The notes under the pieces were generated by a model. It did not search any database. It was not told the origin of the DNA and saw only the letters and a program-made list of their open reading frames with translations. A program made the translations under genes and the position numbers. This document shows, piece by piece, positions 17,011 to 40,651 of a stretch of 45,081 nt of DNA. The stretch lies in contig JAUJMR010000016.1 of NCBI GenBank assembly GCA_030446765.1, positions 9,883 through 54,963 of the forward strand, in the 5' to 3' direction. Origin of the DNA: Chloroflexia bacterium. Lineage in GTDB: Bacteria > Chloroflexota > Chloroflexia > Thermobaculales > Thermobaculaceae. Within the stretch, counting starts at the first letter, position 1; the number at the start of each line of letters is the position of its first letter.

Positions 17011-17086
17011 GCAGGCAGACTGCCGTACAGCTATGGCACCCGGCTTGCGCGCTGCCGTCACAACATCTGATCGCCGGAGGAGCCCA

Positions 17087-18463
17087 GTGGACCAGCAACA
17101 CCCACACCAGAACAACGACCACCAGATGGGCCCGAACGAGATGATGCGCAAGCAGCGGGTACAGACCCTGTGGATGTACTTCGCCAACATCATCCTTGGG
17201 CTGTGGCTGCTCGGCAGTGCCGCGGCGTCCGACTACCAGGACACCGCGCTCGCCTGGAGCGATACCCTCAGCGGTGCCGCGATTGTCGCGCTCGGTATCG
17301 TAGCGCTCTTCCCGCGTGGCGATTTCTGGGGCCGTTGGGGGATCTGCCTCGTCGGCATCTGGCTCCTCTTCGCCCCGCTCCTCTTCTGGGCACCAACAGC
17401 CTTCGTCTACGCCAACAACAGCCTGGTTGGCGGGCTCGTCATCTCCCTCGCGATCCTGGCGCCGATGATGCCGGGCAAGGCGCATCACATGGCGATGATG
17501 CAGCCGGGACCGGAGACCCCACCCGGCTGGACGTACAACCCCTCCAGCTGGTGGCAGCGCGGCCCGATCATCGCCCTCGGCATCGTCAGCTTCCTCATCT
17601 CGCGCTATATGGCCGCCTACCAGCTGGGTCACATCGGCGCTGTCTGGGATCCGTTCTTCAGCCCCGGCACCGCGAGAATCCTCACCTCCGATGTGTCGAA
17701 GGCCTGGCCGGTTTCCGACGCCGGCCTCGGCGCAACCTCCTATCTCCTGGAAGCGCTGTCGGGGTTCATGGGTGGTGTTAGCCGGTGACGCACCATGCCG
17801 TGGATGGTGCTGATGTTCGGGGTCCTGGTCGTCCCGCTCGGGATCACGAGCATCGCCCTCGTCGTGATGCAGCCGGTTTTGGTCGGCACCTGGTGCACGC
17901 TCTGCCTCCTCACCGCTCTCCTCATGCTGGTGATGATCCCGCTCGCCCTCGATGAGATCTGGGCGATGGTCCAATTCATGATGCAGGCGCGCCGCGACGG
18001 CAAGCCGATGTGGCGGACCTTCTGGGTGGGCGGCACGCTCGAGGGCGGCAGCAAGGACGAGCGCTCCCCGCAGTTCGACAAGCCCCGCCCGTCCATGGTG
18101 CCCTCCATGGTGTGGGGCGTCTCGATTCCCTGGCCACTCCTGATCAGCACGCTCATCGGTTTCTGGCTGATGGCCGCCCCGCCCGTTCTCGGCGCGAGCG
18201 GTGCCATCGCCAACAGTGACTTCCTTGTCGGGCCGGTTGTGGCCGTCACGGCCGTGGTCGCGATGGCCGAGGTTGCGCGCTCGCTGCGTTTCCTCAACAT
18301 CGTGCTCGGCCTCTGGCTGGTCGCCGCACCCTTCCTGCTCGGGGGCGACACGACAACCTCGACCGTCAACGACGTCGCTGCCGGCGTCGCGCTGATCGCG
18401 CTGAGCCTGCCGCGCGGCTCGGTTCGGGAGCGCTACAGCAGCTGGCAACCGTACATCGTGTGA
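17087..18463 (+). pseudogene. VKOR/SPW-repeat membrane protein split by an in-frame TGA
   Basis: GTG 17087 has GGAGGAG just upstream. Residues 1-233 hold an SPW-type repeat (YFANIILGLWLLGSA, later FAPLLFW) and the conserved LTSDVSKAWPVSDAGLGA stretch. A TGA at 17786-17788 then interrupts, and the same frame continues (RTMPWMVLMFG) with the CxxC segment LVGTWCTLCLL and a second SPW repeat (LRFLNIVLGLWLVAAPFLL) to 18463. Related proteins, as I remember them, are single chains with Trp at the stop position, so TGG to TGA explains the split. The C-terminal part could start afresh at ATG 17795, but no good ribosome site precedes it. The predicted role is thiol-disulfide chemistry. Confidence 0.7.
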
Positions 18464-20643: not shown

Positions 20644-22026
20644 TCAAGTCATGCTGGTGAGGTACTCGACTCCGAGCCCGATGGTGAGCGTGAGGACGAG
20701 CGCGGTGCCCCAGACGAGCCACGGACGCTGGCCGAGTGGGCGCTCCATCTCCGGCTGCTGGTACATCGGGACGATGATGCGCAGGTAGACGGCGAGCGAG
20801 AGCACGCTGTTCAGGATGCCGATGACGGCGAGCCATGTGTACCCGGCCTCGATCGCCGCGCCGAAGAGCAGCACCTTGCCGAAGAAGCCGGCCATCGGCG
20901 GGATGCCCACCAATGAGAAGAGAAAGATCGCCATGGCCGCGCCCATCCCCGGGCGGGCACGGCCGACCCCCCGGTAGGCACCGAGGTCACGTCCCACGGC
21001 GCCGGCGACGGCGAACGCGCCGAGGTTCATCGCCGCGTACGCGGCGGCGAAGACGACGAGCGACTGCATCGCCAGCTCATCGCGTGCGATGGCGACCACG
21101 CCGACCAGGAAGTAGCCGGACTGGGCGATGGACGAGTAGGCGAGCAGCCGGACGACACTCGTCTGCACGAGCGCCGTCAGGTTGCCGTAAGTCATCGAGA
21201 TCGCCGCCAGCACGGCGATGACCGTCCGCCAGTCGACCACGCCGGCCGGCAGCTGCTGGCCGATGACTGCCAGCGCGAAGATCGCCCCGATCTTCGGCAC
21301 GATCGAGAGGTAGGCCGCCGTCACCACCGGCCCGCCGTCGTAGGCGTCCGGCGCCCAGAAGTGGAACGGCGCCGCTGCCGCCTTGTAGCCGAGGCCGACG
21401 ACGACCGCCACGAAGCCGGCGGTGGCGGCCAGCGTGCGACCCTCAAGCTGACCGAGGTCCGTCAGCAGGGTCGACCCGCTGCCACCGAACCAGAAGGTCA
21501 ATCCGAAGATCATCACGGCGCTGGTGACGGAACCGTAAACGAAGTACTTCATGGCCGCCTCGGTCGCGCGCTCGTCCCGCGGGTACGCCACGAGCGTGAA
21601 CGAGCCGAGGCTGGCCAGCACGGTGCCCAGCACCAGGAACATGGTGTCGCCTGCGCCGGCGAGCGCGAGCGCACCGACCGTCGTCAGCGAGAAGAGGCTG
21701 TAGACGGTCGCCTCCCGATCGGTGCCCCGAACCTCGGGGACCGCCATGAGCGCCACCAGGGCGGTGGTCGGCAGGAGCACCAGTTTGGCCCAGACGGCGA
21801 GGTCGTCGATCCGGTAGGTGCCCATGAAGACCGTGGTCTCCTTCCCGAGCAGGGGGATCGCGAGTGCCGCCGCGACCAGGGTGCCGACGACGGTGGTCGG
21901 CATCGCGACGGCATGGCGGCGCAGCATGCCGGCGACGAGGGTCGCGACGCCGGTCAGGACCACCACGATCTCGGGCAGGAGCAGGCCCAGGTCGCGGCTC
22001 ATGTCCATGGTCATCGTGTCGTTCAC
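20644..22026 (-). CDS. nuoN: Complex I membrane subunit NuoN-like
   Basis: A 460-residue antiporter-like subunit with about 13-14 helices and typical NuoN text: PFHFWAPDAYDGGP, a Lys in GLGYKAAAAPFHFW, LLAYSSIAQSGYFLVG and SLVGIPPMAGFFGK. NuoN is one of three proton-pumping subunits of complex I. GTG 22026 overlaps the nuoM stop (GTGA), with GAGGTG 8 bases upstream; longer in-frame extensions to 23301 are shadow sequence of nuoM. It is the last gene of the nuo unit. A decayed duplicate of its 3' end is at 38964-39240. Confidence 0.93.
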   Translation of the reverse strand: MNDTMTMDMSRDLGLLLPEIVVVLTGVATLVAGMLRRHAVAMPTTVVGTLVAAALAIPLLGKETTVFMGTYRIDDLAVWAKLVLLPTTALVALMAVPEVRGTDREATVYSLFSLTTVGALALAGAGDTMFLVLGTVLASLGSFTLVAYPRDERATEAAMKYFVYGSVTSAVMIFGLTFWFGGSGSTLLTDLGQLEGRTLAATAGFVAVVVGLGYKAAAAPFHFWAPDAYDGGPVVTAAYLSIVPKIGAIFALAVIGQQLPAGVVDWRTVIAVLAAISMTYGNLTALVQTSVVRLLAYSSIAQSGYFLVGVVAIARDELAMQSLVVFAAAYAAMNLGAFAVAGAVGRDLGAYRGVGRARPGMGAAMAIFLFSLVGIPPMAGFFGKVLLFGAAIEAGYTWLAVIGILNSVLSLAVYLRIIVPMYQQPEMERPLGQRPWLVWGTALVLTLTIGLGVEYLTSMT

Positions 22027-23492
22027 GGGAGGATCACCTCGCTCGCCGTGCGCACCAGGTCGAGCACCAGCCGGGGCACGACACCGATGAGCACGGTCAG
22101 CACGAGGAGCGGCACGACGGCCCAGAGGTCCGCACGCGTCATGTCGTGCATGCGTGCCCATCGCTCCGGTACCTCGCCGAGAAAGACCGCCTGGATGGCG
22201 CGCAGGTAGAGACCGGCGGTGACCGCGATCCCCACAATCACGATCGCCGCGAGCACTGGCCAGACGTCGAGCGTGCCGAGGAACATCTGGAACTCCGCGG
22301 GGAAGTGCGCCAGCCCGGGCAGGCCCAGTGAGGCGAAGGCGGCCAGGATGAAGAGCCAGCCCATCACCGGTGTCGTGCGGAGCAACCCGCCGAACGCGTC
22401 CATATCCCGGGTGTGCGCCCGGTTCTGGAGCATGCCCACGAGGAGGAAGAGGGCTCCCGTGACGATGCCGTGGCTGACCATCTGCAGGACCGATCCGTCG
22501 ATGGCGGTCGCGCGCGTGGCCGCGTCGGTCGTGGCCGCCGCCGCCGCGACGGCAACGACGATATACCCCATGTGGTTGACGCTGGTGTAGGCGACGAGTC
22601 GCTTCAGGTCCCGCTGGGCCAGCGCCACGAGGGCACCGTAGACGGCCGAGAAGGCGCCAACGATCGCGACCCACAGCGCGGCCTCCCGGAACGCGTCCGG
22701 CGTCATCTGCAGCGCGAAGCGGATGAGGCCGTAGGTGCCGAGTTTGAGCAGCACCCCCGCGAGCACCACGCTGCCGGTGGTGGGCGCCTCGACGTGCGCC
22801 GCGGGCAGCCAGGTATGTACCGGGAACACCGGCGTCTTGATCGCGAACGCGATCAGCAGCGCCAGCAGCGTCAGGCCGGCGGCGACGCCGGTGAGCGGCG
22901 GGGCGGCGATGATCTCGCGCATGTCGAAGGTCCGCGGGTCCGAGCCGAGATAGAGGGCGAGGATGGCCAGCAGCAGTGGCAGGCTGCCGAGCAGGGTGTA
23001 GATGAAGAACACCAAGGCCGCGCGCTGGCGGTCCTCGTACCCCCAGCCGGCGATGATGAAGTACATCCCGACGAGCGTGACCTCCCAAAAGACGTAGAAC
23101 AGGATGAGATCCAGGGAGACGAAGACACCGAGGCAGGCGGTCTCCAGCAGCAGGAAGAGCGCGACATAGGTCGGGGCGCGGTCGGTGATGTGTGTCGAAA
23201 ACACGAGGGATACGATGAAGAGCAGGGCCGTCATCAGTACCAGGGGAACGCTCACGCCGTCGACGCCGACACGGTAGGCCACCTCGAGCGAGGGGATCCA
23301 CGCCGCCTCCTCGACCTGGGAGAACCCCGCTCCGTCGACGCCGCGAATCCAGATCGCCAGCGCCCCAAGCAGGGTGACACCGGAGGCAGCGAGTCCAACG
23401 GTGTGCGCGGCCCGCGGCGCGCTTCCACGCATGCCGAGCAGGATCAGGGCGCCGACCAGGGGCGTGAAGATGGTGATGGTGATCAGCGGCAT
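22023..23492 (-). CDS. nuoM: Complex I membrane subunit NuoM-like
   Basis: A 489-residue antiporter-like subunit. Typical features are LFYVFWEVTLVGMYFIIAGW (with the conserved Glu of the proton path), AFAIKTPVFPVHTWLPAAHV (conserved Lys and His), GTYGLIRFALQM and LVAYTSVNHMGYIV. Conserved charged residues for pumping are kept. It sits 19 bases after nuoL and overlaps nuoN by 4 bases. It looks fully functional, in contrast to the reduced peripheral arm of this complex. Confidence 0.94.
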   Translation of the reverse strand: MPLITITIFTPLVGALILLGMRGSAPRAAHTVGLAASGVTLLGALAIWIRGVDGAGFSQVEEAAWIPSLEVAYRVGVDGVSVPLVLMTALLFIVSLVFSTHITDRAPTYVALFLLLETACLGVFVSLDLILFYVFWEVTLVGMYFIIAGWGYEDRQRAALVFFIYTLLGSLPLLLAILALYLGSDPRTFDMREIIAAPPLTGVAAGLTLLALLIAFAIKTPVFPVHTWLPAAHVEAPTTGSVVLAGVLLKLGTYGLIRFALQMTPDAFREAALWVAIVGAFSAVYGALVALAQRDLKRLVAYTSVNHMGYIVVAVAAAAATTDAATRATAIDGSVLQMVSHGIVTGALFLLVGMLQNRAHTRDMDAFGGLLRTTPVMGWLFILAAFASLGLPGLAHFPAEFQMFLGTLDVWPVLAAIVIVGIAVTAGLYLRAIQAVFLGEVPERWARMHDMTRADLWAVVPLLVLTVLIGVVPRLVLDLVRTASEVILP

Positions 23493-23511
23493 CGGGGACG
23501 ATCTCCGGGCT

Positions 23512-25477
23512 TCAGACGATCAGGACGAGGATCAGGATGACGGCCGTGCCGCCGGCGGTGAGCAGGAGCTCACGGTGGACGAGACCGGACTGGAGCTGCC
23601 GAGCCCGTCCACCCAGCGCCAGGGTGCGGGTGACCAGCGCGCGGATCGCCCCGTCAATGCCGGACACGTCGAGATCCTCTGCAGAGCGCGCCACGTCCAT
23701 CGTGCTCCGGCCCGTCAGGATCACGCCATCGTGGACGCGCTCGTCGGTGCGGTGAGCCATCCGGGCCATGGAGAGAGCGGCGCGGCCACCGCCCAGCACG
23801 GCGGCATGGATGCCGTCGTCGGTGCGGTGAGCTATCCGGGCTATGGAGAGGGCGGCGCGGCCACCGCCCAGCACCGCGGCATGGATGCCGTCGTCGATCC
23901 CATCACACCATCGCGCGACCGCAAGAGCGGGCCCCACCGCCCAGTCCATCCAGCCGTCACCGATGCGGAACCCCGAGCGCGCCGCCTCGACGGTGGGACC
24001 GAGGAGCCGCTCGGCCGGCACCAGCCACCCGGCCAGCAGGCCCACCGCCGCGGCAGCCAGGCCGAGGCTCATGGCCAGGGTTGACTCGGGCAGCTCCGCA
24101 TCGATCAGGTGAGCGTATGGCTCCGCCAGCAGCCCGACGGTGGCCGCCAGGATCACGAGGATGGTGAGCCCGCCGCCCATCAGGCATCCGACCACGCCAT
24201 CACTGCTGCGGTCGGGAGCGGGCTGGTCGCCCCACAGCAGCCGGAGCGCGCGCCCGGTGGACGCCGGTCAGGGCCGAGGCCACGACGGCGAGGGGAGTGA
24301 AGGGAGCGGGGTGGGGCGACTCCAGCGTCGCTGCGATCACCGCGTCCTTCGACCAGAACCCGGCCAGCGGTGGCAGGCCGGCGAGGGCGAGCCCCGCGAC
24401 GGCGAACGCGGCGAACGTCAGACGCCGCTCCCGGCCGACGCCCGCGAGCTCGGCGAAGCCGGTCGCGTGGCGGTCGTGCTGGAACACGCCGGCGGCGAGG
24501 AAGAGCGAGCTCTTCATGGCGGCGTGGGTCGCGAGATGGAAGACCGCCGCCGGGACGGAGCCCGCCCCGATCGCGAGGAGCATCAGACCGAGCTGGCTGG
24601 AGGTCGACGCCGCCAGCAGGCGCTTCAGGTCCTGCTGGGCGATGGCGGTGAGTCCGGTGACGACCGCCGAGAACCCCGCTACCAGGCCGACGACGAGCAG
24701 CACGCCGCTCGACATGAGCGGGAACGCGCGAGCGAGCAGCACCACCCCCGCGACCACGAGGGTCGCCGCGTGCAACAGCGCGGAGACCGGCGTCGGGCCG
24801 GCCATCGCGTCCATCAGCCACCCCTGCAGCGGTGCCTGCGCCGACTTGCCGGCCGCGGCCAGCAGCAGGGCGAGCCCGGCGGTCGCCCCGGCGCTGCCGT
24901 CTACCGCGCCGGTGGCAGCCATGGCGCTGGTGCCGGTTTCCACGATGATGATCAGCACGCCGAGATAGAGGCCGAGGTCCGCCGAGCGGGTGATGAGAAA
25001 CGCGCGCGTCGCCGCCGCACCGACACGGGGTTGCGTGAACCAGAAGCCGATCAGCAGGTAGGACGCCAGGCCGATCAGCTCCCAGGCCGCCAGCAGCAGG
25101 AGCCAGTCGTCGGCAAACACCAGCGCCTGCATGGCTGCGACGAAGAGGGACATCGCGCCGAAGAAGCGCGCGGTGTCCCGCTCGCCCGCCATGTAGCCGA
25201 CGGCGTAAAGCAGTACGAAGGTGCTCACCACGGCCACCACGGTGGTGAGCACCGCGCCGAGCGGGTCGACGGCGAGGCGCAGGGGGAGGCTGGGGAAGCC
25301 TGGAAGCGTGGTCGTGACGCTGTCACCACGCTCGACACGCATGAGTGTCGTCAGCGCGGCGAGAAGCCCGGCTGTGGCACCGAGCATGGCAACCAGGCCC
25401 GCGCGATGGCGCACGAACGGCACGAGGATGGCAGCCGCCAGCGGGCCGATGATGGCGAGCGCAGCGATACCCACCAT
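23512..25477 (-). pseudogene. nuoL: Complex I membrane subunit NuoL-like, one frameshift in the C-terminal third
   Basis: From ATG 25477 the first 400-odd residues match NuoL: ADDWLLLLAAWELIGLASYL, GKSAQAPLQGWLMDAMAGPT, LKRLLAASTSSQLGLM and ATHAAMKSSLFLAAG. Near 24265 (GTCCACCGGGCGCGC on the minus strand) the frame breaks and would end at 24200. The adjoining frame continues with ALRLLWGDQPAP and C-terminal helices to 23512. Two lost bases or one extra base would explain it. The C-terminal region holds a 25-residue tandem repeat (23741-23890). If the lesion is real, the complex lacks a normal lateral helix; if it is an error, NuoL is about 655 residues. Confidence 0.85.
23741..23890 (-). repeat. 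75-bp tandem repeat within nuoL
   Basis: Two near-identical 75-base units (23741-23815 and 23816-23890) with the beginning of a third. Each encodes 25 residues around GIHAAVLGGGRAALS, then ARIAHRTDD. They add an amphipathic, Arg/His-bearing stretch to the C-terminal part of NuoL. Confidence 0.9.
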
Positions 25478-25478
25478 G

Positions 25479-25787
25479 TCAACCCTTCAGCTCCGCGGCC
25501 TCTTCCATCTCAACCGAGCCCTTCGCCCGGAAGCGGGCGGTGCCGAGGCCGAAGCCAACCGCCGCCTCGACCGCCATCACGGTCATCACGACCAGCACGA
25601 ACATCTGCCCGGCGTAGACGTCCGGGTGCAGAAAGCGCCAGAAGGCAACGAGATTCACCATAGTCGCGCCGAGCATGAGCTCGACGCCCATCATGATCAT
25701 CACCAGGTTCGTCTGGCTGAGCGCGCCGTAGAGGCCGATGCCGAAGAGTACTGCGCCAATGATGAGCGCGAGGATCAGCGTGGTCAT
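25479..25787 (-). CDS. nuoK: Complex I membrane subunit NuoK-like
   Basis: A 102-residue protein with three helices. The two conserved membrane glutamates of NuoK are both present (IMMGVELMLGA and MAVEAAVGFGL). They belong to the proton path linking the antiporter subunits. The ATG overlaps the nuoJ stop (ATGA), and it ends 1 base before the nuoL start. The C-terminal tail is short and acidic. Confidence 0.93.
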   Translation of the reverse strand: MTTLILALIIGAVLFGIGLYGALSQTNLVMIMMGVELMLGATMVNLVAFWRFLHPDVYAGQMFVLVVMTVMAVEAAVGFGLGTARFRAKGSVEMEEAAELKG

Positions 25788-26290
25788 CGTTTCGGCTCCC
25801 TGGCGACCGCCACCGCGATCGCCGCGATCATTGAGACGAGGATGGTCACCCCGACCGTTTCGAACAGCAGCATCGAGCGCTCCATGATCTCGATGCCGAG
25901 CGCCCGCAGTTGGACGGTCGTCGAGTCGACCTCCTTCGCGACCGTGCCCCAGTTCACCAGCAGCGCGACCGCGACCGCCAGCAGGGTGGCGACGATGCCG
26001 GCCGCGAGCGCCTCGCGCTGCTGGTGCGACATGTCCATCTGCCCTAGGCCGCCGGGGTCCATCATGTACATCACCATGAAGATCGCCATGATGCTCATCT
26101 CGGTGGCCATCATCATCAATTGGAGCACGCCGAGGAACTCCGCCTCCATGGCGAGGAACATACCGCCGATCGCGGCCATCGCGCCGAGGAGCGAGAGCGC
26201 CGAGCGGACCATCGAGGAAGTCTGGAACACGCGCACGCCAAACCAGATCGCGGCTGCGCCGAAGAGGGCGATGAAGATCGTCGGCATCAT
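25784..26290 (-). CDS. nuoJ: Complex I membrane subunit NuoJ-like
   Basis: 168 residues with five hydrophobic helices. The family's third-helix pattern is visible as FLAMEAEFLGVLQLMMMATE, followed by an unusually Met-rich stretch (MSIMAIFMVMYMMDPGG). ATG 26290 overlaps the nuoH stop (ATGA); an upstream in-frame start at 26368 is shadow. NuoJ lies between NuoK and NuoA/H in complex I. The Met-rich helix and loop are noteworthy beside copper genes, but may only reflect drift. Confidence 0.9.
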   Translation of the reverse strand: MMPTIFIALFGAAAIWFGVRVFQTSSMVRSALSLLGAMAAIGGMFLAMEAEFLGVLQLMMMATEMSIMAIFMVMYMMDPGGLGQMDMSHQQREALAAGIVATLLAVAVALLVNWGTVAKEVDSTTVQLRALGIEIMERSMLLFETVGVTILVSMIAAIAVAVAREPKR

Positions 26291-27189
26291 CGGTCCACCG
26301 CCCAGAGGGTGACCCCCACCCACAGAATGTTGACCAGCGCGAGCGGGATGCCCAGCTTCCAACTCCATGCCATCAGGTGCTCCGAGCGCACCCTAGGGAC
26401 CCACCGGCCGAGCCAGAGCATGGCGGCGACCACTGTCAGCGTCTTGACGGCCGTCCACGCCGACGCCGGCAGCCAGGGACCGAGCCACCCGCCGAGGTAG
26501 AACACCACCACCGCCGCGGCGAGCGTCAGGATCAGCGTGAGGCGTCCCAGCCGGAAGATCGCCAGTCGCACGCCGGTGTACTCGGCGGTGACGCCGCCGG
26601 CGAGTTCGGTCGGCGCGACGGGGTGGTCGAAGGGCGGCAGAAAGGCGACGGCCATCGCCGCCAGCCAGAAGAGGACGAAGCCCAGCGGCTGCGTGATGAC
26701 GTTCCATGTGCCGCTCGCCTGCGACTCGACGATGGCGGTGGTCGACAGCGACTCGGCGCGCATCGCCACGGCCGTGATCGGCATCACCGTCAGCATCGCG
26801 TAGGCGATGAGCTGGGCGAGGAACCGCCACCCGGCGACCATTGCGTAGGCACCGTTCGGACCCCAGCCGGCCATGATCAGCGCGACGACGACATAGACCC
26901 ACGCCGCGTTGACGAAGAGACCACCGGTGGCCAGGTCGATGACGATCACTTCCGCCGCGAGCGGCAGCACGGTGGTCGCCGCGATGCCCGCCGCGAGCAG
27001 GATCGGTGGGGCAATCTCGAAGAGGATGCGGTCCGGGCGCCGGGGCACCAGCGACTCCTGCCCCAGCATCGCCACGGCGGCGGCGAGGGGGCGACCGGGG
27101 CGGAAGCGTCCGGTCGAGACCCACGATTCGAGCGTGGCGACCACCCAGATGCCCACGACGATGGGGACAATCATGAGGAGCATGGTCAT
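26287..27189 (-). CDS. nuoH: Complex I membrane subunit NuoH-like, divergent quinone-channel residues
   Basis: A 300-residue protein with about eight helices. Recognisable parts are AMLGQESLVPRRPDRILFEI, AGWGPNGAYAMVAGWRFLAQ and PPFDHPVAPTELAGG followed by AEYTGVRLAIF. In ordinary NuoH the text is AQMISYE with an essential Glu, and PFDxPEAExELVAG with acidic residues. Here these read AQLIAYAML and PFDHPVAPTELAGG, so several acidic residues of the quinone/proton channel are missing. ATG 27189 overlaps the stop of the upstream fusion gene (ATGA). The divergence matches the loss of redox residues in that fusion protein. Confidence 0.88.
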   Translation of the reverse strand: MTMLLMIVPIVVGIWVVATLESWVSTGRFRPGRPLAAAVAMLGQESLVPRRPDRILFEIAPPILLAAGIAATTVLPLAAEVIVIDLATGGLFVNAAWVYVVVALIMAGWGPNGAYAMVAGWRFLAQLIAYAMLTVMPITAVAMRAESLSTTAIVESQASGTWNVITQPLGFVLFWLAAMAVAFLPPFDHPVAPTELAGGVTAEYTGVRLAIFRLGRLTLILTLAAAVVVFYLGGWLGPWLPASAWTAVKTLTVVAAMLWLGRWVPRVRSEHLMAWSWKLGIPLALVNILWVGVTLWAVDR

Positions 27190-29243
27190 CGGTCGATCTC
27201 CCACGGCGAGAGGTCGAGCGACGCGATGCTGACAAGCGCGTCGGCCAGCTCGGCCTGCCCAGTGACGATCGGCACAAGGTCCATGAGGGCGCGCGACGGC
27301 GTGGAGATATGCGCCTCCGTGATCTCGCCGTGGTGCGCGACGAGGTGCAGGCTCGCGGCTCCGCGTGGTGTCTCGACGGTCGCCATACCGCTCCCCGAGA
27401 GGTGTGCCGGCACCTCAGGGAGAGTGAGACCGATGGTGGCGCTCACGGCGATGAGGTCGAGGCTCTGGTGGATCTCGGCGAGCCGGGTCTGGAGGCGGGC
27501 GTGGGTGTCGCCGCGCTCGCGCGCAATGGATTCGAAGCCGAGTGCGAGGTAGGCGGGACTGTCGGCGCGGCCATCCACCGGCCGACCGGAGGCCCGTGTG
27601 ACGGGGCCGGACGCGTTGTGGAGCGCCTCGCTGTCGAGGCGGCCGATCCCGGCGGTCCGTCGCCTGAGCATCGGTGTTCGCCCCACATCGCGGGTCAGGC
27701 GCTCGATCCTGGGACGCAGCGTGAGCATGGCGCCGGTGTCGGCCGCCTGGGCAGCCGCGAGGTGCAGCCGGGCGGCGAGGGCTGCCAGCGCGCTCATGCC
27801 GAGGAGTTCGAGAAACGCCGTCAGCCACCCAAGGTGGCTGACGACGCGCTCGCGCTCCAGCGCCCCGATGCTGGCCCGGTCGACAGTATCGGGGCGCTCC
27901 GCACCCTGGATCGCCGCGATCCCCTTCGCCGCCAAGACGCAGTAGACGATCGGCGAGAGCGGGTCGAGTGTGGCGAGACGGTCCATCAGCGTCGCCGCCG
28001 GCCCGGGCAGCGAGGCCGCGATCCCGCGGTGGACGTGACCGGTATCGAGCGTCACGGCGGCAACGGTGTCACCGTCGAGCGTGAGCCTGACGGCAAGGCC
28101 GGCCGGCAGACCGGGGAAGAGGGGACCGAAGGCAGTCTCGGCCCACTCCATCGGCAGGCCGTCCCGGCTGCGGGGCAGCCCCTGCGTCATCGCGACCATC
28201 GACATGAACCTGCTGTCCATCATGTGGTGGTCGTGGCCGGACATGTCGTGCCCCATCGCTCCGAGATCCATGCCTCCATGGGCGTCGTGGCTCATCTCGG
28301 CATGGTGATCGTGTGCCATCTCGGGTGAACCGTCATGATGCACGGTCACGTGGGCGTGCGCAGAATCGTCGGAGGGTACGGGGTAATCATCACGGTCCAT
28401 GCCGATGTGGTACTCATGTGGGCCGTTCTCCGGCCTCTCCTGACGAGCATGACCCATTGCCGCGCGATCGCCATGGATCATGGCTTCGGAGGCACCATGG
28501 TGGGCGCCATGGTCAGGTTCGCTGTGCTCGCCGTGGTGATCGTGACGCTCGGGCGGTGGGCTCTCGGTGGCGTGGTGGGGGTGCTCGCCATGACCCGCGT
28601 GCGGCCCAGACGCCGGCCCTTCCGGATCTTCCATTCCATCGTGGTCGGCATGATCGTCCTGAGGTGCCACGTGGGTGTCGTGGGCTGCGTGCTCCTCGCC
28701 AATCGTGTCGTGCCCGGAGGCAGTCTCGTGGCTCGTGCGTTCGTCATGGGGCATGTCGTGCCCGGCGTGACCGCCATGTCCGTGAGCACCGTGGTCCATG
28801 CCGACGTCGTCCGCGTCAGCCGCCTCGAGCACCTCAGCGGTGAAGGGGGCGACCGTCTCAGACCAGGTGTGCGATGCGACCAGCGCGCGGGTGCGCGCCA
28901 GCCCCTCCTCGAGCCCGGCCTGGTCGAGGGTCACGACGACATCTGCCGGGGGGAGGGGTGCGGTGGTGCCGGAGCCGATCGCGAGGATGACACGAGGGCG
29001 TGGCATCTGGGCGTAGACGATCGCAGTCGCCGCGCGCAGGCCCTCTGGCAGCTCCCCGACGACGAGGAGCACCGAGGCGTGCCGTGGTGTGGGGGCGACA
29101 TCGACCCCGGCCGCTCCCAAGTCCAGGCCCGCGTCGCGAGCCATACGGGCGTCCGGAACGACGTAGGCGGTCAGGGTGCGCGCCATCGCGCGAGCGACAA
29201 GGCGGCGCACGGTGGTGGCGGGTGCCGATCGCGAACCGATCAT
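27186..29243 (-). CDS. Fusion: NuoB-like domain, His-rich linker, NuoD-like domain (no Fe-S or quinone ligands)
   Basis: A 685-residue protein; its start overlaps the nuoA stop (ATGA) and its end overlaps nuoH. Residues about 1-125 resemble NuoB (PRHASVLLVVGELPEG, YAQMPRPRVILAIGS) but contain no cysteine, so the four N2-cluster ligands are absent. Residues about 148-345 form a low-complexity linker with about 42 His in 200 residues plus Asp, Glu, Gly and Met (HGAHGHGGHAGHDMPH, for example). Residues about 366-610 resemble NuoD: GHVHRGI, NASGPVTRASG and LAEIHQSLDLI. The GPQHPxxHG quinone-site motif is replaced by GPLFPGLPAG, and the only Cys is near residue 435. It probably docks on NuoH/NuoA as a structural or metal-binding cap; electron transfer by the usual route seems impossible. 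Domain matches are from memory. Confidence 0.82.
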   Translation of the reverse strand: MIGSRSAPATTVRRLVARAMARTLTAYVVPDARMARDAGLDLGAAGVDVAPTPRHASVLLVVGELPEGLRAATAIVYAQMPRPRVILAIGSGTTAPLPPADVVVTLDQAGLEEGLARTRALVASHTWSETVAPFTAEVLEAADADDVGMDHGAHGHGGHAGHDMPHDERTSHETASGHDTIGEEHAAHDTHVAPQDDHADHDGMEDPEGPASGPHAGHGEHPHHATESPPPERHDHHGEHSEPDHGAHHGASEAMIHGDRAAMGHARQERPENGPHEYHIGMDRDDYPVPSDDSAHAHVTVHHDGSPEMAHDHHAEMSHDAHGGMDLGAMGHDMSGHDHHMMDSRFMSMVAMTQGLPRSRDGLPMEWAETAFGPLFPGLPAGLAVRLTLDGDTVAAVTLDTGHVHRGIAASLPGPAATLMDRLATLDPLSPIVYCVLAAKGIAAIQGAERPDTVDRASIGALERERVVSHLGWLTAFLELLGMSALAALAARLHLAAAQAADTGAMLTLRPRIERLTRDVGRTPMLRRRTAGIGRLDSEALHNASGPVTRASGRPVDGRADSPAYLALGFESIARERGDTHARLQTRLAEIHQSLDLIAVSATIGLTLPEVPAHLSGSGMATVETPRGAASLHLVAHHGEITEAHISTPSRALMDLVPIVTGQAELADALVSIASLDLSPWEIDR

Positions 29244-29602
29244 TGTCGCCCGATGCCCCGCTCGCTCCAGCCGTAGAGAATGCCCAGGAAGAGGATCGCG
29301 AGGAAGACGCCCATGTCGAGGAGGGCGACGAGCCCCAACTCGCGGTAGACCACGGCCCACGGGTACATGAAGGCCATCTCCATATCAAAGGCAAGGAAGA
29401 GTAGGGCGAGGGCGTAGTACCGGAAGTGGTAGCGGACCCAGACCGGCTTCGGCTGCAGCGTACCGCCCTCGAAGGGCACGTCCTTCGCCGGCTCATCTTG
29501 GGAGCGGCCGATCGCACGCGCGAGGAGGTGCAGCACGGTCACGAGGCCGATCGTGCTCGCGACGAACGCCGCCAGCAGGGCGTTCTGTTCGAGTGCGCTC
29601 AT
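29240..29602 (-). CDS. nuoA: Complex I membrane subunit NuoA-like
   Basis: 120 residues and three helices. The core reads VRYHFRYYALALLFLAFDME, then FMYPWAVVYRELG and a third helix ending LYGWSERG. In typical NuoA the loop before helix 2 has ECG; here it is FEGG, so the conserved Cys is Gly. It is the first gene of the nuo unit, with its stop overlapping the fusion gene's ATG. No dedicated promoter was obvious in the 155 bases to copZ, which hold a stem-loop. Confidence 0.92.
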   Translation of the reverse strand: MSALEQNALLAAFVASTIGLVTVLHLLARAIGRSQDEPAKDVPFEGGTLQPKPVWVRYHFRYYALALLFLAFDMEMAFMYPWAVVYRELGLVALLDMGVFLAILFLGILYGWSERGIGRQ

Positions 29603-29757: not shown

Positions 29758-29967
29758 TTACGACTTCGCCGGGTATCCCGCTGCTTCGAGCGCTGCTGTG
29801 ATGGCAGCGACATCGGTGTGGCTGGCGTCGTAGGTGACGTTGACGTCCCTGGAGGCGGCGTCGGCGGAGACGGCCTGAACGCCGTCGATCTTCCCGACCG
29901 CCTGCTCCACGGTGGCGACGCAGTGCTCGCAGCTGATGTCCGGGGCGTTGAGGGTGATGGTTTCCAT
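29758..29967 (-). CDS. copZ: CopZ-like copper chaperone (single HMA domain)
   Basis: A 69-residue heavy-metal-associated domain with the metal site APDISCEHCVATVEQA (CxxC) in place of the usual GMSCxHC, and a C-terminal ALEAAGYPAKS typical of the fold. CopZ carries Cu(I) to CopA and to CsoR; both genes are next door. AAGGAAAC precedes ATG 29967. A promoter with a CsoR-type box lies 50-80 bases upstream. Confidence 0.9.
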   Translation of the reverse strand: METITLNAPDISCEHCVATVEQAVGKIDGVQAVSADAASRDVNVTYDASHTDVAAITAALEAAGYPAKS

Positions 29968-30126: not shown

Positions 30127-32898
30127 CTACCTGATCACCCGCTCGACGACGGCGCCGTGCCCGCCCGATGCTGGGTCGGCCATCTCGCCCGCGGTGACGC
30201 CCATGCCGGCGTTCTCGCCGAGCCAGAGCGCCCCGGCGCCGATCAGGATCGCGATCAGGGCGATGCCGACCAGGAAGCCCCACTCCTTGACCCGCTCGCG
30301 GACGGGCGGGAAGAGGATCGCCTCGGCACTCTCCGGTCGCCGGAACGTCCGCAGCCGGAGGGCGTTGGTGACGACGCTGACGCTGCTCATCGCCATCGCG
30401 GCTGCGGCCAGGACCGGGCTGAGCATGATGCCGAAGGCGGGAAAGAGCGCGCCCATCGCGATCGGGATCAGGGCGACGTTGTAGGCGAACGCCCAGAAGA
30501 GCCCCTGCTTGATCGTGTTCACGGTCCGGCGCGACAGCGCGATCGAGGTCACAATCGAGCGGAGGTCGTCGCCGATCAGCGTGATATCGGATGCCGCCAT
30601 CGCGACGTCGGTGCCGGTGCCGATCGCGATGCCGAGCTCGGCCTGCGCGAGGGCAGGGGCGTCGTTGATGCCATCGCCGACCATCGCGACCACGCGACCC
30701 TCGTTCTGCAGCTCGCGGATCTTGGCCGCCTTCTGGTCCGGCAGCACCTCGGCGAGCACGTGCTCGATGCCGACCTGCTCCGCGATCGCGCGGGCGGTGC
30801 GCTCGTTGTCGCCAGTCAGCATCCAGACGGTGAGGCCGAGCGCTTCCAGCTCGTCGATCGCCTCCTGCGACTCCGGCTTGAGCGTGTCCGAGATGCCGAT
30901 CACGCCGGCGAGCCGCCCGTCCACCGCGACGTAGACCGGGGTCGCGCCGCTCTCCGCCATGGTGCTGGAGGCGCCCTCCATCGGCGTCGTCGAGACGCCC
31001 ACCTCGGCGAGCAGCCGCGTGTTTCCGACCAGCACGGTTTGGCCGTCGACCTTCGCGGAGATGCCCTGGCCGGTGATCGCGTTGAACTCGCTGGTCGAGA
31101 CGATCGTGAGCGACCGGGACCGCGCGGCGGAGACGATCGCCTCGCCCAGCGGGTGCTCCGAGCCGGCCTCGGCCGATGCGACCAGCACCAGCAGGCGGTC
31201 ACTGTTGTACCCGTTCGCGGTCTCAATCGCCGTCACCGACGGCTTGCCCCGGGTGATCGTGCCCGTCTTGTCGAGCACGATTGTGTCGACCTTCCGGGCC
31301 ATCTCGAGCGACTCGCCGCCGCGGACGAGCACCCCGTTCTCGGCCGCCTTGCCGGTGCCGACCATGATTGCGGTCGGCGCGGCGAGTCCGAGGGCACACG
31401 GGCAGGCGATGATCAGCACCGCCACCGTCGCCGTCAGCGCGTAGGAGAGCGTCGGCTCCGGTCCGAAGACCAACCAGATCGCGAAGGTCAGCGCGGCGAT
31501 CACCAGTACGATCGGCACGAAGATGCCGGAGATGCGGTCCGCGAGGCGCTGCATCGGCGCCTTGGAGCCCTGCGCGTCCTCCACGAGCCGCACGATCTGG
31601 GCGAGGGTAGTGTCCTGCCCGACCTTGGTCGCGTGGAAGAGGAACGAGCCCGAGCCGTTGATCGTCGCGCCGATGACCTAGTCGCCCGGCGCCTTCTCGA
31701 CCGGGAGGCTCTCTCCGGTCAGTATGCTCTCGTCTACCGTGGATGTGCCTTCGGTAACCTCGCCGTCGACTGGGATCTTCTCGCCAGGCCGGACGCGCAC
31801 GATGTCCGCGACCGCCACCTGCTCGATGGGGATGTCGATCTCCTGGCCGTCGCACACGATGCGGGCGGTGCGCGCCTGGAGGCCCATCAGCGCGCGGATG
31901 GCGTCGCCGGTGCTCTTCTTCGCTCGCGCCTCCAGCCAGCGGCCCATCAGGATCAGCGCAATGATGATCACCGCGACCTCATAGTAAAGGTAGTAGGGCA
32001 GGTTCCACCGCTCGGCGAGATGCGGCCAGAGCGTCACGAAGGCGCTGTAGCCGTAGGCGACCGACGTACCGACGGCGACCAGGGTGTTCATGTTGGTCGA
32101 GTAGTGGCGCGCGGCCGACCATGCAGCGTCGTAGAAGACGCGGCCCGCCCAGAACTGGATGACGGTGGCGGCGATGAGCATGAACGGCGCGAGCGTCAAT
32201 TCGGAAACACGGAGCGGCGGGTACATTAACAGCGCCATCATCATGACGCCGATCGCGAGGCTGGTGAGCGACTTTCGCTTCAGGTCGGCGATGTGCGCGT
32301 CCCGCCTGGCGTCGCGGGGATCGATGTCCGACGACGGGGCCGCCGTACCGGCCGGTACGGCCGGAGCCGCCACGGGTTCCTGGGCGACGGGGCAACCGGT
32401 GTACCCTGCGCCGCTGATCGCGCCGGTCAGATCGTCCCGCGAGACACGCTCGGGATCGTAATCGACCGATGCTCGCTCCGTCGCGAGGTTGACGCTCGCC
32501 AAGCGAACCCCCTCCACCTTCTCCAGCGCCCGTTCGACACGCCGGACACAGGCGGCGCAGGTCATCCCCTCGACGCTGAAGACTAGGTGACCATCGTCGG
32601 CCGGTGCCGCCGGAGCGGGGGAGGGGTCGGCTGGCGACTCTGCGGTCGCCGTATAGCCGGTCTTCTGAACGGCGGTGGTGAGGTCCTCGATCGAGACGGT
32701 CTGTGGGTCGTACGTGACAGACGCGCGCTCGGTTGCGAGATTGACACTCGCAGACTCGATGCCTTCGACCTTCGCCAGCGCCTTTTCGACGCGGCGGACG
32801 CAGGCCGCGCAGGTCATCCCCTCAATCTCGAGCCGCGCTTCGGAACGCGCGGTTTCAGTCGCGCTCGCCTGAGGTGGTGTACGGGGTGTTGTGGGCAT
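30127..32898 (-). pseudogene. copA: Cu(I) P1B-type ATPase CopA interrupted by one in-frame TAG
   Basis: The reading frame is 923 codons long with a single TAG at 31678-31680 (codon 407); both halves are in the same frame. Two N-terminal HMA domains each have CAACVRR. Membrane helices follow, then the actuator region ([19 protein letters not shown]) directly before the stop. After it come [12 protein letters not shown], the transport motif CPCALGL (about 499), phosphorylation site DKTGTIT (about 543) and hinge GDGINDAP. Homologues usually read GDEVIG here, so GAG to TAG is likely. CopA exports Cu(I). If real, the stop removes the ATPase core; the C-terminal half alone could not pump. AAGGAGGG precedes ATG 32898. 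Confidence 0.88.
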
Positions 32899-33131: not shown

Positions 33132-33482
33132 ATGAACGAACCTTTATCGGAAACGAACAAGCTGATTACCAACACAAGACACGTAGGTCCCGGCTCCACG
33201 GCCGTTGCTGCCGATCGGGCAAAGATCCTCGCACGCCTCCGCCGCCTGGAGGGGCAGGTCCGGGGCGTCCACAAGATGGTCGAGGAAGATCAGTACTGTC
33301 TCGACATCCTCACCCAGATCTCGGCCATCACTGCGGCGGCGCGGAGTGTTGGCCTGCTGGTCCTTGAGGATCACATCCGCAACTGCGTCATGGGCACGTG
33401 TCACCATGGCCATCAAGACGAGGAAGATCTGTTCGGTGAGCTCTCCGGAGCGATCGAGCGGTTCACTCGGTCCGTCGGCTAG
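33132..33482 (+). CDS. csoR: CsoR-family copper-sensing repressor
   Basis: A 116-residue all-helical protein of the DUF156/CsoR family: LARLRRLEGQVRGVHKMVEE, then the Cu(I) ligands in sequence, Cys in DQYCLDIL and His plus Cys in LEDHIRNCVMG. These three (C-H-C) mark the copper-sensing branch. Without copper it binds pseudo-palindromes at copper-efflux promoters, and Cu(I) releases it. Two TACCC-N5-GGGTA boxes at the copA and copZ promoters fit this. ATG 33132 has GTAGGTG 6 bases upstream. It is divergent from copA. Confidence 0.94.
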   Translation: MNEPLSETNKLITNTRHVGPGSTAVAADRAKILARLRRLEGQVRGVHKMVEEDQYCLDILTQISAITAAARSVGLLVLEDHIRNCVMGTCHHGHQDEEDLFGELSGAIERFTRSVG

Positions 33483-38963: not shown

Positions 38964-39240
38964 TCAGGCCCCGAGAGCGTTGGTGAACGGTTCCGCGGCC
39001 AGACCGATGGCAAGCATCAGGACGAGGGCGATGCTCCAGACCACAGCCGGGAAGCGGTTCGCTGGTGTCGCGTGTCTGGATGGACGGTACATCGGCACGA
39101 TGATGCGGAGATAAACGGCCAGGGAGAGGACACTGTTGAGGATCGCGACGACGGCGAGCCAGGCGTAGCCCGCGTCGAGGGCGGCCCCGAACAGCAGGAG
39201 CTTGCCGAAGAACCCAGCCATCGGCGGGATGCCGACCGGC
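38964..39240 (-). pseudogene. 3' remnant of a second nuoN
   Basis: The frame reads VGIPPMAGFFGKLLLFGAAL, LAVVAILNSVLSLAVYLRII and VPMYRPSR before a diverged last helix and stop. It matches the last ~90 residues of the intact NuoN (SLVGIPPMAGFFGKVLLF... YLRIIVPMYQQP). Nothing of the preceding 370 residues is present; the sequence runs into M56-relic DNA near 39240-39340. Either a second nuo operon once stood here, or a duplicated piece was left by recombination. Confidence 0.85.
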
Positions 39241-39338
39241 GAGAGCGTGGCGAGCGCAGCGTACCGATCTCCGACATACGTGTAGTAGCAAGGTCGGTGC
39301 CTGGCTCTCGGCGTCTGCGCGAACAATGGGGTGGGGCA

Positions 39339-40226
39339 TCAGCAGACGGGATGGGATAGCACACCTGCGACAACGGGAATGCCGCCCCGTGCAACCAGGG
39401 GGACAAGAACAACACCTTCTGCCGCCAAGACCAAGGTCCATCGACGCAGCGCCCCGTCGGCAGGCTCATGGGACAGGTCATTGGCAAGCGCCGCAATACG
39501 TCTGTCCGCGTGACCTTCGAATGCGGGGACCGCTAATGGAAGCCCCATGGTTTTCGCCAATGCCGCCGCCAGCCAACGGCGCTCACCCATCGTCACGACC
39601 GCATGGCGATCGGCCGCAATCTCAGCCGCGACGACGTAATCGCGGACGAGCGACACATGGGCGGTGCAAAAAGAAAAACCCGGAAGCGATGATGCGTAAC
39701 AGGAACAGCCGGAATGGATCGCGCTGACGAAGATGCCATCGTTCATGGAGAAGACCGCTTCCAGCTCTCGCCGACTCAGTCGATGTATCAGCGCCGTGGA
39801 GATGCAAATCCGGGGTCGCAACCAGCCGTAGGCAAAGCCGAATGCCGCGGCGATTCCACGACGTCGAGCCGGAATCCACCTCCGTCACGATCGAGGGTTG
39901 CTCGGACTTCGGGAGGCAACGTAGGGCACCTTGCAACGAGCGTCATGGCCCGCAGGTCGGCCACGATCGCGCGCTCTCGGTTCGCCGTACATGCTCCTGC
40001 GACGAGGCTTATGCTGCTGAGGCCCAGCAGGGCGACCGCAAGCAGATGCGCGATGGTGTCGAACGACGAGATCGGTGTGAGCAGGCAGGCGACCGCATAC
40101 AGACCTGAACCCGCCGTGGCAACGACCGGGAACAGCAACACCAGAACAAGGATGCCAATCGCGCTGCTGACTGCCAGAGCTACGACGATGACCAACAAGA
40201 AGAAGGCGATTGGGCGATGTCGTCAC
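39339..40226 (-). pseudogene. M56-family metalloprotease (BlaR1-like), frameshifted
   Basis: GTG 40226 overlaps the stop of the upstream BlaI-type gene (GTGA). Helices (LVIVVALAVSSAIGILVLVL), the zinc motif HERWHLRQRDP (in a second frame) and VAAEIAADRHAVVTMGERRW are all visible, but need at least three frame changes. The protein would be the partner of the repressor at 40223-40651, as the intact M56 is of the BlaI at 5536. If truly broken, that repressor has lost its own inactivator. Confidence 0.78.
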
Positions 40227-40651
40227 GGCTCATCACCCTTGACCATCTGCTCCAGCTGCCGTCGCCGCTTGGGAGAAAGCTCACTGATCTCGGTGATGAA
40301 GTGGGTGATCGCTAAGTCTCCAAACTCCTCGATCAGGGCATGCACCCGCTGTGCGGCGGCATGTTGGAGGAACTCCTCCTCTGTTGCCGCCACCCGGTAG
40401 ATGTGTGCCTTCCCGGACCGCTCGCGAGTCAAGACACCCTTGACGACCAAGCGGCTCATGACGGTCATCACGGTCGTGTACGCCAACGACCGGCCGCTGT
40501 GATTGAGCGCATCGAGGATATCGCGGACTGTGGCGGACTCACGTTGCCACATAAGACGCATGATCGCGGCCTCCAGCTCCCCAAGAGATGATTGATCACC
40601 TCGTCCTGTCTCGCTCGCGATAACCTCATATTCCCATCCTGGCGGCGGCAT
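40223..40651 (-). CDS. BlaI/MecI-family repressor, second copy
   Basis: A 142-residue intact protein: LGELEAAIMRLMWQRESATV, recognition helix region SLAYTTVMTVMSRLVVKGVL, wing IYRVAAT and a C-terminal helix (LSPKRRRQLEQM). It is clearly paralogous to the regulator at 5536-5961 but differs in the recognition region (LAYTTVMTVMSRL versus HYKTVLTVANRL), so it may bind another operator; TACTA-TAGTA palindromes at 40812 and 44799 are candidates. The M56 partner downstream is frameshifted. The ribosome site is weak. Confidence 0.88.
   Translation of the reverse strand: MPPPGWEYEVIASETGRGDQSSLGELEAAIMRLMWQRESATVRDILDALNHSGRSLAYTTVMTVMSRLVVKGVLTRERSGKAHIYRVAATEEEFLQHAAAQRVHALIEEFGDLAITHFITEISELSPKRRRQLEQMVKGDEP

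Follow-up and report, generated by a model that had tools for sequence, protein, structure and literature searches.

In a stretch of 45,081 nucleotides of DNA from a Chloroflexia bacterium (GenBank assembly GCA_030446765.1, contig JAUJMR010000016.1), here called the window, lies an unusual operon for homologues of the subunits of respiratory complex I, among them a single protein in which NuoB and NuoD are fused. The contig of the window (C82) belongs to a draft genome (G000) of 4.08 Mb that is 89% complete. As pointed out in a preliminary description made from the sequence alone, the operon consists of eight coupled genes on the minus strand, with overlapping starts and stops or spacings of less than 20 bases throughout: a nuoA-like gene (29240-29602; PF00507, E=9e-26), the gene for the fusion (27186-29243), and genes resembling nuoH (26287-27189; PF00146, 3e-55), nuoJ (25784-26287; PF00499, 6.9e-20), nuoK (25479-25787; PF00420, 5.9e-17), nuoL (23512-25477; PF00361, 3.2e-60 for the 5' part), nuoM (22023-23492; PF00361, 1.1e-67) and nuoN (20644-22026; PF00361, 1.2e-55). 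The A, H, J, K, L, M and N proteins all exceeded the Pfam cut-off, and a Pfam search of the operon revealed no nuoC, nuoE, nuoF, nuoG or nuoI, which agrees with the preliminary description. Scans of the window for tRNAs and Rfam families gave no matches.

The nuoL-like gene occupies two reading frames. The frameshift that the preliminary description had reported, near 24.2 kb, is indeed present. It may be an assembly error rather than biology, because the nuoL of a paralogous operon in the same genome (contig C65) is intact and aligns over both frames, and because the nuoD of the canonical complex I operon on contig C92 (at ~544.9 kb) is likewise interrupted by a break in its frame, a sign of indel errors in the assembly.

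The fusion protein has 685 residues, with a single cysteine and 56 histidines, and was characterized by Pfam, by a family profile, and by AlphaFold2 modelling followed by Foldseek. Its match to PF00346 lay above the Pfam cut-off (E=1.3e-19) and that to PF01058 below it (E=0.0046). A profile built from 43 relatives of the fusion found both families: the C-terminal part matched MbhL (6cfw_L, 5e-26) as well as NuoD/NdhH chains, and the N-terminal part matched NuoB-type chains, MbhJ (1.5e-7) and NDUFS7 (3.5e-7). The linker between them matched the metal-binding region, or heavy metal binding domain (HMBD), of the copper P-type ATPase 8ovl (1e-6). The NuoB-like domain (residues 1-130; 28854-29243) is free of cysteine, as had been noted, and is modelled with a predicted local distance difference test (pLDDT) score of mostly 80-97; when it was modelled alone, the top 50 Foldseek matches were all of the NuoB type (PSST/NdhK and hydrogenase homologues), with template modelling (TM) scores of ~0.6. 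A linker rich in histidine and methionine follows (residues 146-345; 28209-28808) and is predicted to be disordered (pLDDT <50). The NuoD-like domain (residues 366-685; 27189-28148) has a pLDDT of 83-98 over most of 410-680, and its best Foldseek matches were NuoD (TMt ~0.7). The preliminary description had allowed that neither end might have such a fold; the models instead indicate that the NuoB and NuoD folds persist at the two ends of the fusion.

Redox ligands lost and proton paths retained

To see which functional residues remain, we compared the proteins in E. coli numbering. The NuoB-like part of the window fusion has none of the cysteines that ligate cluster N2, and 38 relatives show no conserved cysteine at the four positions. 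The histidine pair of the NuoD quinone loop is gone as well: canonical NuoD has GPQHPxxHG, the window fusion has GPLFPGLPAG (28098-28127), as described previously, and all 43 fusions have GP[LF]FPGLPxG. The position of the quinone tyrosine is a proline in the window fusion, on an alignment judged by eye. As far as the sequences tell, all ligands of cluster N2 and of the quinone are gone from the fusions examined, and the redox function has very probably been lost.

In contrast, much of the membrane arm is intact. NuoK retains both glutamates (E36/E72), NuoL retains E144, K229, K342, K399 and D400, and NuoM retains E144, K234, K265 and E407; the proton-path residues of these three subunits are invariant or nearly so across the family. 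NuoA keeps the equivalents of D79/E81. NuoH keeps E36, E71, D79, D213, E220 (as E or D) and E228 and has lost the equivalents of E157, E216, E218 and E241, whereas NuoN keeps K158, K217, K247 and K395 and has lost the equivalent of E133. The contention of the preliminary description that the membrane arm was kept while redox coupling was dropped therefore holds family-wide, including its claims on the NuoK and NuoM proton paths and on the acidic residues of the NuoH quinone channel, with the loss of NuoN E133 as a correction. One of its arguments fell away: the missing cysteine of NuoA is not informative, since the canonical NuoA proteins of G000 (YESG) and of E. coli (FESG) lack it too.

Could the complex still be a redox enzyme that uses another cofactor or partner, with electrons carried by a metal of the linker, copper or some other, or with a separate flavoprotein feeding the arm? 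A gene for a pyridine nucleotide-disulphide type flavoprotein (PF07992) does lie immediately upstream of nuoA at some Gammaproteobacterial loci (L064, L075 and L083). We nevertheless regard a redox enzyme of this kind as very improbable, given that the quinone histidines and the N2 cysteines are lost in the fusions examined and that no electron carrier is conserved across the loci.

A family found in several phyla

A scan for homologues, with one genome taken per species, identified at least 80 loci, in Rubrobacteria, Rhodobacterales and other Alphaproteobacteria, Gammaproteobacteria, Bacteroidota (Hymenobacter), Deinococcota (Trueperaceae) and Chloroflexota. The order A-BD-H-J-K-L-M-N is maintained at every locus with a long enough contig. 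Twelve plasmid records carry the operon (from Rubrobacter, Roseovarius, Sulfitobacter, Paracoccus, Nitratireductor and Thioclava), often close to ISKra4-type or other transposases. Among the matches listed, a Thermomicrobiales locus (L124) is one of the nearest relatives of the window fusion, with 51% identity in the best segment. As this gene order and these substitutions are met with again in dozens of genomes, the operon is not a product of chance, and we have hardly any doubt that the family is real. The window operon has the eight-gene order, the FMSM...GLxMEW motif described below and the GP[LF]FPGLPxG loop by which the family is defined, and it lacks the HMBD that is also part of the definition.

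A tree of NuoD domains, with a midpoint root only, unites the 43 relatives with a support of 99/99 and sets canonical NuoD apart. The sister group (100/94) consists of eight-gene operons of the type of L039-L042, from other Chloroflexota, which have the same gene order (in L039, nuoA lies beyond the contig end) and a B-D fusion of 440 residues that is free of or poor in cysteine and has no HMBD. A further operon, that of genome G225 (L043, 7387-16890, plus strand), has the order A-B-D-H-J-K-L-M-N, with a separate NuoB that has retained its cysteines and with no C, E, F, G or I, and is a possible evolutionary intermediate.

The odd operon is evidently an addition to complex I and not a replacement for it: a canonical-looking copy of NuoJ is also present in 13 of 13 relatives' genomes searched, and G000 has, besides a second odd operon on contig C65, a complete 14-gene nuo operon on C92, the existence of which the preliminary description had left to be checked. 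We considered whether nuoC, nuoE, nuoF, nuoG and nuoI located elsewhere might serve as partners of the odd operon and rejected this, as the canonical operon on C92 is complete and the odd operon is extra.

The membrane subunits are mostly 55-75% identical within the family, across phyla, which we take to reflect purifying selection on a membrane machine that has no redox centers. This conservation bears on the view that the operon is a functionless, decaying copy of complex I. The frameshift in nuoL, an in-frame stop in the neighboring copA-like gene and a remnant of a second nuoN (38979-39242, minus strand) would fit such decay. However, the identity across phyla, the invariant motifs, the two copies in G000 and the spread on plasmids all speak against it, and we rejected a decayed complex I, which is scarcely credible, on the strength of the conservation. 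The remnant itself encodes 88 residues with 67% identity to the NuoN of the window and is perhaps a trace of an older copy of the operon; a BlaI/CopY-type repressor gene (40226-40651, minus strand; PF03965, 1.3e-27) lies near it.

Metal-binding sites, copper genes and a proposed transport function

What the family has gained lies partly in the linker of the fusion. The HMBD (PF19335, "heavy metal binding domain") is present in 39 of the 43 fusions, in one to seven copies as counted by motif. Pfam detects none in the window fusion, which has the histidine- and methionine-rich linker of 200 residues in its place, whereas the paralogous fusion on C65 bears one (5.3e-11). In the G225 operon, five HMBD repeats reside within NuoJ and not in a fusion, so that, judging from the domain matches, the same kind of domain has been gained by a second subunit. 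Just after the linker, and immediately preceding the former quinone loop, is the motif FMSMVxxTxxLPRSxDGLxMEW (28143-28208), whose residues F346, M347, S348, M349, T353, D361, L363 and M365 are invariant in 43 of 43 fusions.

Methionines are also unusually abundant in part of the membrane arm. Compared with 9-11 canonical operons, the methionine content was 10.9% versus 3.3% for NuoJ (with ranges that do not overlap), 9.2% versus 4.0% for NuoK and 4.3% versus 2.1% for NuoA; the corresponding ratios were 1.0x for NuoH, 0.66x for NuoL, 1.0x for NuoM and 1.2x for NuoN. Genome composition is not the cause, as the excess was also seen when odd and canonical proteins of the same genome were paired (NuoJ, 11.3 versus 4.0, higher in 12 of 12 pairs, p=0.0005; NuoK, 8.7 versus 4.7, higher in 11 of 11). 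One helix of NuoJ (26060-26116) displays a stripe of methionines at positions 58, 59, 60, 64, 67, 71, 73, 75 and 76 in 28 of 28 relatives, where canonical NuoJ has mostly other residues, except at M73. M60 replaces an invariant tyrosine (E. coli Y59) in all 28, and M60, M64, M67, M71 and M75 would, from their spacing, share one face of the helix. Further conserved methionine columns occur in NuoK, in NuoA (M74, M76 and M79, invariant together with D73/E75 in the segment FDMEMAFMYPWA) and in NuoH, which has gained methionine in the helix that formerly bore E157. Methionines are known to form entry and transport sites for Cu(I), as in CopA (PMC9433437).

These features could mean that the complex is a metal-gated proton valve or stress sensor, in which the B-D-HMBD part would sense cytoplasmic metal and open or close the membrane arm, with no transit of metal and with a changed proton motive force or internal pH as the output. 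The HMBDs are cytoplasmic by homology, the proton paths are retained, and the metal-binding domains of P1B ATPases are regulatory as well (PMC9433437). We consider a valve or sensor rather unlikely, however, because it leaves unexplained the invariant methionine stripes that J, K, A and H carry in their membrane helices.

The genes next to the operon are suggestive of copper. Directly upstream of nuoA is a gene for a CopZ-like metallochaperone (29758-29967, minus strand; PF00403, 3.4e-17), whose product is 42.6% identical to CopZ of Rubrobacter tropicus over 47 residues. Farther upstream lie a copA-like P1B ATPase gene (30127-32898, minus strand; PF00403 and PF00122), which has its in-frame stop near 31.68 kb and a product 53% identical to R. 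tropicus CopA over 859 columns, and, divergent from copA, a gene for a CsoR-type metal-sensing repressor (33132-33482, plus strand; PF02583, 1.7e-26). The arrangement in R. tropicus, copA-csoR-copZ-nuoA, is a near match. Elsewhere, copA, csoR and a multicopper oxidase gene are found in R. marinus, multicopper oxidase, copB and azurin-like genes in Roseovarius, and cusA in Sulfitobacter; several plasmids of Alphaproteobacteria have copper genes adjoining the operon. In total, 20 of the 80 listed loci have some copper gene nearby, and P1B ATPase genes occur in the flanks of 12 of the 80 where 0.74 would be expected (0.59 Mb of flank at 1.27 per Mb).

Other neighbors were also noted. L041 and L042, of the sister group, have multicopper oxidase-like genes, and a CopA-like ATPase was also seen in that group (as a fragment in L042). 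At seven loci in Gammaproteobacteria and relatives (L063, L064, L075, L076, L092, L103 and L119), a conserved membrane protein of ~390 residues is encoded beside nuoN or nuoA; it is 68-89% identical among these loci and, in those scanned, gave no Pfam match above the cut-off. Within the window, two open reading frames that jointly bear SPW repeats and a split VKOR-like domain (17033-18463, plus strand) are possibly a single gene broken by a frame error.

Among the roles envisaged in the preliminary description (an ion transporter, a module for another partner or a metal-handling complex), it is metal handling and ion transport that gain most support, from the HMBDs, from csoR, copA and copZ, and from the methionine stripes, and a metal-handling role in general seems quite probable. 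Our favored interpretation, to which we assign a probability of about 0.5, is that the operon encodes a non-redox, eight-subunit derivative of complex I that couples proton flow to the transport of a heavy metal, probably Cu(I). The cytoplasmic linker, with its HMBDs, histidines and methionines, and the FMSM...GLxMEW motif would collect a soft metal, most likely Cu(I) and perhaps Ag(I). Cu(I) would pass from the linker sites to the FMSM motif, from which it would enter the former quinone cavity and move onward along the methionines of H, A, J and K, driven by protons passing through K, L, M and N. In this specific form, a proton-driven Cu(I)/Ag(I) transporter whose quinone cavity and E-channel have become a methionine-lined metal route, the proposal is tentative and falls somewhat short of an even chance.

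As to direction, export (H+/Cu(I) antiport) would be likelier than import, because copper-resistance genes neighbor the operon. An importer or supplier, in which proton entry would bring copper in or route it to cuproenzymes, might account for the azurin-like proteins, cytochromes c and multicopper oxidases at some loci, but the neighborhoods are dominated by exporters and the repressor CsoR (copA, csoR, cusA and copB), and we judge it improbable.

Several observations weigh against proton-coupled copper transport. Moving a trace metal by means of so large a complex is costly. The sister group has the J, K and A methionines without the HMBD, the FMSM motif or the NuoH methionines, and the stripes may therefore predate any role linked to the HMBD. 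With NuoN E133 and the E-channel acids of NuoH lost, proton coupling may itself be altered. The comparison behind the excess of P1B ATPase genes treats related loci as independent, so that its computed p-value is too small. Finally, a search of the Gammaproteobacterial loci for copper genes yielded none apart from cusA/cusB at L091.

If proton-coupled metal transport is correct, the function would be categorically new, an undescribed kind of metal transporter and an undescribed fate for complex I, and it would add a proton-driven, plasmid-borne system to known bacterial metal resistance. How the quinone site of complex I is coupled to distant proton movement in the membrane arm is still debated, and a natural arm in which electron transfer has been replaced by apparent ion binding would offer a test of whether it can work by conformational or electrostatic coupling alone. 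We found no description of the odd operon among open-licence papers in PubMed Central. Partial sets of Nuo genes on plasmids are reported in a survey from 2025, whose main text does not contain the word metal (PMC12361115). Such surveys may misread odd operons as incomplete complex I because the genes are annotated piecemeal; the plasmid copies are entered gene by gene as "NADH-quinone oxidoreductase subunit" or "heavy metal-binding domain-containing protein".

Comparison with known systems

Respiratory complex I (NDH-1) and the odd operon have in common nine subunits related by homology (A, B, D, H, J, K, L, M and N), the NuoB and NuoD folds and the proton-path residues of NuoK, NuoL and NuoM. 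The odd operon differs in having no C, E, F, G or I and no N2 or quinone ligands, in the fusion of B to D through a metal-binding linker, in its methionine-rich A, J and K, and in the presence of a normal complex I alongside. The group 4 [NiFe] hydrogenases and the MBH and MBS complexes are alike in that the D part matches MbhL better than any other sequence. However, the two CxxC pairs that ligate NiFe are missing, and with its single cysteine the window fusion cannot hold the ligands of either NiFe or N2; moreover, the NuoA- and NuoJ-type subunits are of the complex I type. The Ehr complexes are hydrogenase-type relatives that have lost the NiFe ligands and are thought to retain an Fe-S small subunit, whereas the odd operon has lost the Fe-S ligands of the small subunit and gained HMBDs.

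Antiporter-like subunits without redox chemistry are also a feature of Mrp and DabA-DabB, but those systems have no NuoH, NuoB or NuoD, all of which the odd operon possesses, and it has no MrpE, MrpF or MrpG; DabA (DUF2309) was not among the Pfam matches of the window operon. The copper modules (the CopA ATPase, CopZ, CsoR and CusCBA) resemble it in their HMBD, histidine and methionine motifs and occur at common loci with it, and we know of no copper transporter built from complex I, nor did the literature searches reveal one. The L039-L042 operons share the gene order, the cysteine-poor B-D fusion and the J, K and A methionines, and they form a separate clade marked off by the absence of the HMBD, the FMSM motif and the NuoH methionines. 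To judge from its sequence, the odd operon lacks defining features of complex I, of the [NiFe] hydrogenases, of Mrp and of Dab, and by homology it adds a new branch to the complex I superfamily.

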